From: Albifimbria verrucaria
Lineage: Eukaryota > Ascomycota > Sordariomycetes > Hypocreales > Stachybotryaceae
Reading direction: 5' to 3'
NCBI GenBank assembly: GCA_020081605.1
Contig: JAHREC010000045.1
Location: 1,674,001-1,738,000, forward strand
Length of the DNA stretch: 64,000 bases
Shown in pieces: positions 1-5,421 of the stretch (within the stretch, counting starts at the first letter, position 1; every line of letters starts with the position of its first letter). The notes beneath the pieces are model-generated. The model ran no database searches. It worked only from the letters and a program-made list of their open reading frames with translations, and was not told where the DNA came from. Made by a program: the position numbers and the translations under genes.

Positions 1-3000
1 TAGGGATTTGTCTTTCTTATAGAATTGAGGAACCGAGTCTGGGTCGATTCCCAAACTCAGTGCACTTACTTGACTGCTGACAGTCTGAAGAAGCCAACCC
101 AAAAATACTCCCGAACGATTTTCAAGGTGGCTTTTAAATGGTCCTTCTTGAGAATAAACGAGTGATAGACCCTTCAACAGCAATATCTTTGGTAGTGCTG
201 AATAATGGCCGTTCTTGCCATAGATTAACCCGGCTAATGATCCGTAGATCACAGGTAGCAATGACGTGTTGTTTGTCTGCTCTGCAATCTCCAGTGCACG
301 AGTCGCATGGTCTTTCGCTGCTTGCCATAACTTCAACTTCGCGAAGCACAGGGTATAAACCAGGTGCACCATCGGAAAATCGGATAGTTTCCCACCAGTA
401 AATATAGTAAGATGATGTATGGCTCCAACCCAGTCATGCTGAGCTAATGCCATCTCACTGAACTTGATATGGGCTACGTCACCTTCTTGTCCGGACGCTA
501 GATTATGCCGCTTCATTAAACGTGACATCTTCTCCACAGACTTTGCTTGATCTTCTGCATTAAAAGTTTCCAAGTCTACCCTTAAATGGCCGAAGACCTG
601 TCGTATACCCCAGAGTCATTGTATACACTCAGGTATTGGGTATCAAATTTGCTTGTCTGTGGAGGCAATGAGAGTGGCTGAGTGGCCTTTTGCAACTCGT
701 AAAGAGTGCATTCAAGCAACGACAATGCTGTTGGGCAATAGGTATTCAATTGCTCCAGGGTCCTGGCATTGGTCTGCAGGACAATTGCCTTGATAGTTTC
801 CTTCCTTTGTAACATCTCATGGGGATTAGGAAATCCTTTGACGCGAGTAGAAAGCACAGTTATCCAACCATGCATAATTCTGAAAATATGGGCATAACGA
901 AGATTTTGCGCACCATACTCGGGCTCCTGCAGTAACAACTCCTCAAAAATTACTTCCGCAGCCTCGAACTGGCCTATCCTAGTCTTATAAAGACCTTCAG
1001 TAGTGCGAAGCTTTCGAATCTGTGTTGCCAAGCCAGAGGAACTCTTGCCTCGAAGCTTTTCTCTTCTCTTGTCAATGAGACTGTATGCCTTACTTAAATA
1101 CGTCTCGAAGCTCTCCAAAGCTTGAGCATTTGGGGCTAAGCCAGTAATGCTACACAGAGCTTGAAGATGTTCAGAGGTTGTGTAAAACAAATGCTCATCT
1201 TCCAAGACTTCTGATTCCATTCTCATGCATCGCTCAAGGAATCTGTGACGTATCACACCATAAGGTGTCCAGAAGGCCTCTTTCGCAATACAGGTTTTCT
1301 CAATAGCTGCCAAGACCATCATGACTGGGCTGTCATCGAGAAAGGCAGTCCCAAAGACAGTATTGGACAGTATTTCTGGTCTTGAGATTGTTTCCATGGC
1401 ATGCATAATATCTGGAAAGAACTGCACAACCTCTGGTATAACCTTAGACCAATCCACATCAGATTCAGAAGAATTTTCTCTAATGGTATTGAATATTCTC
1501 CCCAACGAGTATCGCCATATGACATGGCTGCGAAGTAATTTAAGTTGATTTAGGACAAGTTTATCCGTTACACCAAAAGTGCCTCCCCGTGTAATGAGGG
1601 AGAACAAAGGGTGAAGTCTTGGCTGGTCGCTATCTTCTGCTCTTATCAAAATCCCCAGGTTGGATAATTTAGACATAAGTATGGAATAGGACGCGGAAAA
1701 GTTACTGTTCTCCTTATATCTGTCGAGAGAATTCTCAAAGTCAGTTGACGGGGAATCAGATGTAGACTGTCCAGGAGTCGATTCTGTAATCCTGATTGAA
1801 CATGTTCTGGCTCTTTTGAGGAAAGCAAAATTGAAATCCACATCCAAAATAAAGCGTCATCCTCCGGAGGGCTGACAAGAAGTTCAGACATCCAGAATGT
1901 GGACCAAATGTTGATATCTGGAGTCAACGATGGTGGTGAATTCGAACAGTATTTCCGTAGAAACGCGGCAAATTGATGTTGCCCTCTAAGATTGCCCAAA
2001 ACCGAACTCTTGCCTGCATCTTCCGTCCAAAGTCTGTTTAACGCGTCGCTGTAAGGCAAATTGGGTTGAAAGATCAGAGGAATTATCACCTCCATAGCAA
2101 GTGGATTGTGGTTAACTTCATGAATAACATTGAGGAGTTGTTCTTTCGCGCCTGGCTGCTCCAACACCTTTTCAATTTTGCTCATTCTCCCAATATTTCG
2201 AGCTAAACGCATGGCCTCTTCAGTACGCAATGCAGGGAGAGCATAGCAATAATCATCCCTGTAAGCGTCATCTCCACCCATCCATTGCGGCTGCCAGCGG
2301 GATGCAAGAATGATATAACAGCTTGAGCCTGCTAGAGCCTCCAGCAGCTCCATCAGCACTGTAGCAGTTTGGCCGTATTCTGTCACTTCTTCGGAAGTAA
2401 GTAAACCGTCATTCTTCATCAGTACTGTACTCCTAGTTGGGTCGAGACAAATGGGAAGGTTTGCATCGTCGATAATCAACAAGGCTTTCTTTTGCGCAGG
2501 CCATTGACAATCGAGTCCCATAAGGTTTCCCAATCTTTGGCCCAACCAACAGGACCACAGGCATCTAGTCGTATCATTGGAAGTAATTCTGTGGCAAATC
2601 TGACTAGTTTGTCATCTTTGTGAAGTCGGTGATAGAATGACTCTTCCACAAAGCCCGACTGCTTCCACCATGACGCCGCATGCTTCAGTAAGGCTGTTTT
2701 ACCAGAACCAGCGGGTCCAACGAGGATAATAAAGTTTTTATCTGCTCGTGTTAACAGCCTTTCCATACTGGCAATGGCTTCGCTTCGCCCTATAATGTCG
2801 TCCTCCTTTAACAAGGTTGAGGGCTTTGAGATCTGTCGTTCTAGGGCAGATGACCTCATCTTTCTGTAGGTGTTGAGAGGCGTAGATGCGGCTGTTGATA
2901 TTCCTCGCCACAATGTCTTTGTAAAAGATTGGCGCTTCAGTTTACTTGCAGGCTGTTCTGTCGTTTTAGTGACAGAAGTGTACACGACTGGCACAAAGGA

Positions 3001-4147
3001 ATCATTCAAATCAACACCGGTCTTGAAGGCGGCTTTTCGCTTGCTCTGTTGTGCCATTGCCCGTCTGCCCAGCCTTGCTGCTGAATCCGCATTCCAACTA
3101 GTCAGATATTCAGAGAAGAACGCGGCTTCAAATATCTCGGCTGCATCTTCCAGGATGTCAAAGGACATGGCTATGGTCGTGGGAATACCTCGACGTGCAA
3201 ACAGGTATGCGAGATTTCCATCTTGCGATAAGCAAGGCTTCGCTGAGTTACAAGCATTGAGGTTTACTGTATTAATACCTGCTGAAACTAAGGCGTCGGC
3301 AATCTTCCTTGCAGGTACAGCGTCAATTGCGATCGAGCCCTCGGACTGGAACTCTAAGAGAGCACTGACTTCGTAAGAAAGGTTCCACAAACATGTAATG
3401 AATAACGTACCTGTCGGAGTCTTGATCTATACGCCCATGCATATCAAAATGCACCATGAAATAATGGCCTCGTGGGTGTGATGACAAGGCGTTTTGAAGA
3501 GCATTCCAAGTGGGCGGGTAAAGAATTTCCCTTCGACAGTATACTTGTGTTTCTTTATAACATTAAATGCTTGTCTTGTGATGATACGCGGGTCTATCCT
3601 GTCGATAGATACGCCATTTTGGCTCGCCTTGCGACTACAAAAAGGATCTTGAGCTTCTTCACTTCGGCTTTTAGCAACGGCGGATGGTTCGTTTCTTCGT
3701 CTTTGGGAATTATTGATCGGATCACAGTGACTTTCCGAATCTTTGGCACATGATTCCAGAGCTTTGTGTCCTCCAAAACTTCCCAGTGATGCTGCTGCAC
3801 AGGGGATATATCATCCACGCTGCAGACGTTAAGCACAAGTTCATCCGGGGTGTCGTTTCCCAGCTTGAACAAAGAGCATTTCTGTAGCTCAAATGCAATT
3901 GTGGAGCCATATGCTTCAAGAGTTCGTGAAACGGAGGCAGCTCTGGCGTGTTCTAATAGTGGCTTCTTTGGATATTGTTCTAAGTACCATCTTACCTCGT
4001 CTTCAGAAACTATTTCAACAGCGCCAGATATGTCAAGTAAATGAGCATCACTAAGGCCATTTCCATTGGCGAAAACTTTCACCACAAATTTTCCTTGTGT
4101 TTGTTGTGATTCGTCAGTGTCAACGATATTCAGGAAGAGGGGGCCAT
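1..4147 (-). CDS. CHAT-protease / NB-ARC / TPR NLR-like protein (C-terminus beyond the window)
   Basis: This is a candidate intracellular receptor whose caspase-like protease is controlled by a nucleotide switch. The inferred start is the ATG at 4147-4145 and the reading frame is still open at base 1, giving about 1,370 codons. The N-terminal half is a CHAT domain: a YPPTW segment near 3510, then HFDMHG (catalytic His, about 3450), then NLNACNSAK (catalytic Cys, about 3255), ending in the usual GRRA...VPVVY tail. Next come an NB-ARC-type P-loop GPAGSGKTALL (about 2710) and a Walker B LLIIDDAN (about 2470). A winged-helix-like LSNLGIL block sits near 1660, and helical TPR-like repeats run from about 1100 to 1. 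A 46-bp intron is likely at 3365-3410. The frame breaks six times, always by one missing base: 4139-4143, 3617-3620, 3526-3528, 2486-2493, 1750-1753 (approximate) and 596-597. Both catalytic residues and the P-loop are intact, so I favour sequencing error over decay. It is divergent from the gasdermin-like gene. Confidence 0.82.
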
Positions 4148-4542
4148 GTCAATCGAAGATTATTGCTGCAAATCTGTGCTGTCGTAGGTCATTGAGAGCT
4201 GACCAGGAATGACAACAACAGGTAGAGGGCAGGGATGCCTTAGCGGAAGATTTCTGTGGGACACCTGCTTTTATCTTGGATCTAGACCATTCGTTCGAGG
4301 CTGAGCTTCGGATTTCGGCACTGCATATAGCCATGGCTGTTGAGTATCGAATAATATGAGGGATAGCGGGGTGCGGCTGAGTCAAGTCAAAACCACAGAG
4401 GAAGCCTAACAAAAGAAAGCCAGCACTGCCTCATATGAATGCCTGATTATGCCCTTGTGAAACATTTTAGCGACATAAAAATTTAGCAAGTCTTCATGGG
4501 AAACGTTCCTCGTCATATCAATAATCACACTTCTTACCCAAG
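4148..4542. promoter_or_regulatory. Shared divergent promoter region of NLR and gasdermin-like gene
   Basis: These 395 bp separate the two divergently transcribed starts (4147 on minus, 4543 on plus). No convincing ORF crosses it. The plus start sits in a good fungal context (AAG before ATG). The short spacing suggests co-regulation, but I see no specific operator. Confidence 0.5.
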
Positions 4543-5421
4543 ATGGCTAAGGACAAGACGTGGTTTATCCTCAAAGACACAATCCCTGCAAATAGGGAAG
4601 ACGATCTGCTTGGGGCCATCGTTGAGGATTTTCGTGACCCGATAGCGGGCTTCGTGCCCATCTCCGTGCAACCTCAACTACTCGTACCAGCTATCGCCAA
4701 AGCCGTCGAGACAGATGATTTAAACGCGCGGATTGAAATTAGCAAGATAAACTCAACGGCACTTTCATCCCAGCTACTTGAAGTTTTTACGGGTAGTCAC
4801 GTTAGAGGTCAGCAAACCAACGTGGTGCTGGAGTCCTCGAGGATTCGCACACGCAAACTAGTCCACCATCCAAAGCTTTTTGCAGAGTTGATCGCTCAAC
4901 CATCAGTTAAAGCGGAGCTGGAGACTTTTATCAAGACCAGGAACAAGAGAAAGCTTTTCTTTGTCGTTGGTATTAAGACATGCTTACGAAGTCAGCTAAA
5001 CACTAGCAAATCTCAAATACGTGAGAATACTATCGGCGCAGGAGTGCCGTTAGATGCTGTTGCAGGGATCCCTGGACTCATTCCAAGTGCAAACCTTGGT
5101 GGCTCTGTTGGATTTTCAACAGCGTCTACCTCAGGAACGTCATCAACATGGGAAGATGAGCGTATATTCGCTATAGAATACCGGGTTGCTCGTCGCGATT
5201 GGTTCGGGTTTGGCGCTCAAACAGAGCTGAGAAATAAGTTGGACAAAGCTGACGGTGCAGCATTCTTCGGTAGTGATGAGGAGAGTAGTGATATAGATTC
5301 GGAGACTGACGGTGAAGGAGACGAGGTAGACAATCTTGGCTTGATTGATGCCCGCCATGACTGGTCGTGTTTTTCGGAAGACGGGGCACAGTTAGATGCT
5401 ACATCTGGCTACATATTTTAG
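4543..5421 (+). CDS. Putative fungal gasdermin-like pore-forming protein
   Basis: A single-exon, uninterrupted 292-aa ORF with no signal peptide. It fits the fungal gasdermin-like pattern as I know it. A short N-terminal WFILKD strand is followed by LLGAIVEDF.DP. An RTRKL...F.ELI..P.V..EL segment follows at about residues 105-128, then KLFFVVGIKTCL (about 136-147). A Gly/Ser-rich stretch (about 160-202) precedes a beta strand IFAIEYRVAR (about 207-216). The tail is highly acidic (FFGSDEESSDID...DGEGDEVD, about 244-268). In the family, a short C-terminal segment is removed by a partner protease and the N-terminal domain then permeabilises the plasma membrane. The divergent CHAT-NLR next door is the expected type of partner. 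Family assignment rests on pattern, length and context, not on a profile search. The alternative is an unrelated lineage-specific protein. Confidence 0.55.
   Translation: MAKDKTWFILKDTIPANREDDLLGAIVEDFRDPIAGFVPISVQPQLLVPAIAKAVETDDLNARIEISKINSTALSSQLLEVFTGSHVRGQQTNVVLESSRIRTRKLVHHPKLFAELIAQPSVKAELETFIKTRNKRKLFFVVGIKTCLRSQLNTSKSQIRENTIGAGVPLDAVAGIPGLIPSANLGGSVGFSTASTSGTSSTWEDERIFAIEYRVARRDWFGFGAQTELRNKLDKADGAAFFGSDEESSDIDSETDGEGDEVDNLGLIDARHDWSCFSEDGAQLDATSGYIF

Follow-up and report, generated by a model that had tools for sequence, protein, structure and literature searches.

Fungal gasdermin genes clustered with genes for CHAT-NLR proteins have already been published, and surveys report a protease neighbor for ~80% of fungal gasdermins. 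In Podospora anserina, a TPR-bearing CHAT protease activates the adjoining gasdermin (PMC12881547). In the same species, HET-Q1, a gasdermin with a short C-terminal tail, is under proteolytic control and loses a C-terminal fragment of ~5 kDa. Here we describe a 64-kb stretch of the Albifimbria verrucaria genome (C33:1674001-1738000, referred to as the window; genome of 48.4 Mb in 41 contigs), where a plus-strand gene for a 292-residue gasdermin-like protein lies beside a minus-strand gene for a CHAT-bearing STAND receptor. An earlier note on this DNA had stated that fungal gasdermins are activated proteolytically and that their genes often lie beside protease genes, including those of CHAT NLRs, and the published passages agree. 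We consider it probable (about 0.78) that these two genes make up a fungal cell-death module, in which the receptor would activate a tail-inhibited gasdermin by cleavage.

As far as literature searches not aimed at this locus show, the pairing is a new example of a type of gene pair already described in fungi. The closest described system is the P. anserina CHAT-TPR/gasdermin cluster (Clave et al. 2022, as related in PMC12881547 and PMC10197012), likewise a gasdermin beside a repeat-bearing CHAT protease. There the protease activates the gasdermin, an activity that is predicted for our pair. Here the protease resides on a STAND/NLR receptor, a subset that these two sources already mention. HET-Q2, by contrast, belongs to the subtilisin-like serine proteases, and the HET-Q1 and HET-Q2 genes are idiomorphs, whereas the two genes described here are neighbors in a single genome. 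RCD-1 of Neurospora crassa is the best structural match of our gasdermin model, but it is activated on meeting another allelic variant, without cleavage, and its variants have 257 and 244 residues, compared with 292 and an acidic tail here. A large predicted CHAT protein is also one hetB allele of Aspergillus fumigatus, which acts in heterokaryon incompatibility; the published passages leave gasdermin involvement open (PMC11138114). Bacterial gasdermin–protease pairs are far in sequence, and a PADLOC scan of four fungal gasdermin sequences found no matching model at E ≤ 1.

The mode of activation proposed here is modeled on what has been published for other fungal pairs. The receptor would combine a CHAT cysteine protease, a nucleotide-binding switch and a C-terminal repeat region, and the gasdermin would be kept inactive by its short acidic tail. 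A signal perceived by the C-terminal region would most likely lead to nucleotide exchange and receptor assembly. The CHAT domain would then cut the neighboring gasdermin near its core–tail junction, perhaps around residues 222-245, a span guessed from charge and conservation. Once released, the core would form membrane pores and cause cell death. This reading draws on the CHAT and ATPase domains, predicted catalytic motifs, gasdermin homology and predicted fold, the charge contrast between core and tail, and the adjacency of the genes.

The divergent gene pair

The 292-residue open reading frame (ORF) is present as the earlier note had claimed, and its start codon lies 395 bp from that of the receptor, so the spacing given there is confirmed and protease and gasdermin genes are adjacent, within 10 kb. 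In a search of 5.8 billion proteins (P-numbers below are database proteins), two relatives were recovered, with identities of 97% and 59%. Because both span its whole length, we regard the ORF as a real gene. No Pfam model matched the protein above its cut-off, and a viral contig scan found no relative.

Evidence that the protein is a gasdermin comes from linked searches. It matches a paralogue on contig C10 at E 5e-6, which in turn matches RCD-1-1 at E 9.3e-7, so homology to a characterized fungal gasdermin is supported indirectly, via C10. A profile match joins it to the family of a gasdermin on contig C22, whose sole match in the PDB is the HET-Q1 pore, though at E 2.1. A search with profile A2 was set aside, as it ranked the HET-Q1 pore first in the PDB but at E 0.22, beside two fiber-protein entries at 0.57. 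AlphaFold gave a predicted local distance difference test (pLDDT) of 30 on a three-sequence alignment. A 71-row alignment yielded a moderate model whose best structural matches are gasdermins, with RCD-1 at the top, and the predicted structure thus points to a gasdermin N-terminal fold. The earlier note's description of the protein as gasdermin-like is therefore supported by homology and predicted fold, and its tail is indeed acidic (Table 1). In P0002, the tail is less conserved (37/71 identical residues) than the core (136/221), yet its final residues are kept. The 71-residue tail is likely the inhibitory piece, by analogy with HET-Q1, since that protein sheds a small C-terminal fragment.

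The minus-strand motifs named in the earlier note were all located (Table 1). The CHAT model PF12770 scored 32.9 bits (cut-off 24), which together with the predicted His and Cys motifs argues for a CHAT protease. For searching and aligning only, the nine translated pieces of the receptor were joined by X. In these, the ATPase scored as NACHT (26.8 bits, cut-off 26.7) and AAA_22 (33.7, cut-off 27), while NB-ARC remained at 16.7, under its cut-off of 23.5. The CHAT-NLR architecture first proposed is therefore supported, with an ATPase closer to NACHT or AAA_22 than to NB-ARC. Three relatives were scanned. P0079 (CHAT, 45.1 bits) is the only one passing NB-ARC (26.7 vs 23.5), P0078 reaches 34.8 bits for NACHT, and P0077 passes neither cut-off (NACHT 25.8, NB-ARC 19.4). 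These profiles suggest a NACHT or NB-ARC nucleotide-binding domain that is borderline in the receptor itself. Its kinase-2 LLIIDDA, ILASR and NPLAM resemble NB-ARC signatures. TPR models fell under the Pfam cut-off both in the receptor (TPR_1, E 1.1) and in the three relatives (TPR_12, E 0.21 and 1.8; TPR_9, E 0.25), so the C-terminal helical repeats are putative, though likely.

The joined pieces gave 24 matches. P0077 (1154 residues, open frame) is ~94-95% identical over 69% of the query and P0078 is 49% identical. P0079 of Aspergillus desertorum (1589 residues) is 36% identical over 94% of the query and also has Walker motifs and a C-terminal end resembling the receptor part beyond the window. 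PADLOC gave two weak matches on P0079 (E 0.009 and 0.044). A 61-residue upstream start (4334-4152) was dropped, as P0079, by alignment, begins at the inner ATG.

Table 1. Features of the gasdermin–receptor locus, in window positions (negative positions precede its first base)
Feature	Position	Strand	Details and basis
Fungal gasdermin (fGSDM) gene	4543..5421	+	single intact ORF, 292 aa; full-length relatives, homology, predicted fold
Predicted pore-forming core, residues 1-221	4543..5205	+	net charge +4, isoelectric point (pI) 9.3; contains the better-predicted stretches of the model
Predicted inhibitory C-terminal tail, residues 222-292	5206..5418	+	net charge -15, pI 4.05; low model confidence
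Shared intergenic region	4148..4542	.	395 bp separating both start codons
CHAT-NLR gene (part inside the window)	1..4147	-	extends to about -654 (C33:1673346); six frame changes
CHAT motif HFDMHG, predicted catalytic His	3434..3451	-	same motif in P0079
CHAT motif NLNACNSA, predicted catalytic Cys	3241..3264	-	NLNACNSA in P0078, NLNACSSA in P0079
Probable 46-nt intron GTACGT...CAG between His and Cys motifs	3365..3410	-	P0079 runs through
Walker A GPAGSGKT of STAND ATPase	2695..2718	-	motif location
Walker B / kinase-2 KALLIIDDAN	2459..2488	-	kept in relatives
C-terminal region, probably helical-repeat sensor (TPR-like, under Pfam cut-offs)	1..1751	-	domain scans, alignment to relatives

Gasdermin and protease loci elsewhere in the genome

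The genome holds at least five gasdermin genes: the one in the window, C22:490569, C10:6375368, C21:181111 and C21:67825. The two on C21 were assigned through identities of 48% and 42% to P0003. The C10 gasdermin lies ~325 bp from a minus-strand S8 peptidase match (C10:6376272-6376949), a HET-Q2-like pairing. Among the matches listed (11 CHAT and 81 S8, both lower bounds), none is on C21 and none falls within 70 kb of the C22 gasdermin, where the nearest S8 match is at 416k and the nearest CHAT match at 629k. Conversely, tblastn (E ≤ 0.05) found no gasdermin at the other CHAT loci on C22, C13, C33:120k and C41 (~2-5 kb flanks) or at that on C12 (3.2 kb), a span that misses any farther ones. 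The 11 CHAT matches represent at least seven sites when those on C17, C18 and C19 are counted as one, and with seven sites in 48.4 Mb the chance of a given gasdermin falling ≤ 5 kb from a CHAT site is ~0.0014. A joint chance figure assuming 60 S8 loci and three gasdermins was not used.

Several side observations concern these loci. C10:6375368-6376949 forms a second protease–gasdermin pair, whose gasdermin has an acidic tail and matches RCD-1-1. C21:67825-68685, C21:181111-181839 and C22:490569 belong to one gasdermin subfamily with relatives in Cladobotryum and Neonectria, both genera of Hypocreales. Apart from P0003, the C22 protein is matched best at 67-72% identity, and the highest matches with a named genus are Cladobotryum (72%) and Neonectria (71%). 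Such matches would by themselves place the fungus probably in Hypocreales. A large ORF with the P-loop GQPGTGKT, NLR-like by eye, lies ~7 kb from the C22 gasdermin (L018:7493-8557). CHAT matches with identical scores occur at 40684-40881 on C17, C18 and C19, with the same score at C12:292477-292674, and are perhaps redundant or duplicated contig ends.

Receptor reading frame and alternative readings

The receptor gene neither forms a single frame nor ends at the first base of the window. It continues beyond that base through a 49-nt intron (-201 to -249), which has good splice signals, as does the 46-nt intron in Table 1. Introns were considered as the cause of all frame changes, but only these two fit, and for six further changes no room for one was found. 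They are located just past the start (one), in CHAT (two), in the ATPase (one), between ATPase and repeats (one) and in the repeat region (one). The first three were judged against P0079 only. The last three fall inside the open frame of P0077, and therefore intact copies exist.

Six frame changes in one gene beside an intact gasdermin could mean that this strain carries the receptor as a genuine pseudogene and the gasdermin as an orphan without a working partner, particularly as some conserved genes of the assembly are unbroken (for example, the CCT gene C15:1831161 and the HSP70 gene C15:2599961). However, at four CCT-gene and five HSP70-gene junctions elsewhere in this assembly, our reading of the match coordinates shows a shift of frame without extra intron DNA. 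In addition, three frames are needed to read the C22 gasdermin, whose pieces of 259, 14 and 26 residues are each 100% identical to P0003. Because these genes break in the same manner, sequence error is likelier than decay. Receptor stretches that align to relatives also stay open in their own frames, the splice signals of both introns are intact and the open relative P0077 is 94% identical, making a pseudogene unlikely. The chaperone breaks also suggest uncorrected small insertions or deletions across the assembly, and its reading frames need care.

Further results weigh against a cleavage-activated module. As assembled, the receptor lacks a continuous reading frame, and a CHAT or S8 neighbor was found for just two of at least five gasdermins, compared with the published ~80%. 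A direct PDB sequence search with the 292-residue protein reached no gasdermin, nor did profiles A3 and A4, with three and two matches, respectively (A3 omitted six of the 75 matches of the C22-seeded search, namely P0009, P0015, P0016, P0018, P0040 and P0076; A4 was built from 35 of them). The AlphaFold model has a mean pLDDT of 58, 68 of its 71 alignment rows were collected in that same C22-seeded search, and none of its 81 Foldseek matches reached E ≤ 0.001 (best E 0.02). The protein could accordingly be some other beta-rich protein of unknown role, which we consider very improbable given its linked homology to RCD-1-1 through C10, its profile match to the C22 family and the gasdermins heading its structural matches. 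Alternatively, both genes may be real but unrelated in function, in which case a different protease, or partner alleles as for RCD-1, would activate the gasdermin. RCD-1 acts without cleavage, most gasdermins found here adjoin no listed match of either protease type and four other CHAT loci showed no gasdermin in their flanks, all of which would suit mere neighbors. The low chance of such adjacency, the closely spaced divergent starts, a long acidic tail that suits cleavage control and the published rate of gasdermin–protease clustering make this quite unlikely. We therefore retain activation of the gasdermin by the CHAT receptor as the probable reading.

Implications for fungal cell death

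A broader proposal is that the pair is a complete, self-contained pyroptosis-like circuit, in which one protein would supply the sensor, the switch and the caspase-like protease and the other the executioner. The two genes would move or persist together across distant fungi and would also act as a heterokaryon incompatibility (het) locus under balancing selection. We regard this as tentative and rather doubtful. If it is true, allele genetics at such a het locus could reveal the NLR ligand.

The cues recognized by fungal NLRs are listed as an open question (PMC12881547), and the present locus adds a test case, its apparent receptor frame damage being most likely an assembly problem. With receptor, caspase-like protease and pore former in two genes, CHAT-NLR/gasdermin pairs serve as compact models in which an immune receptor sets off cell death by pore formation.

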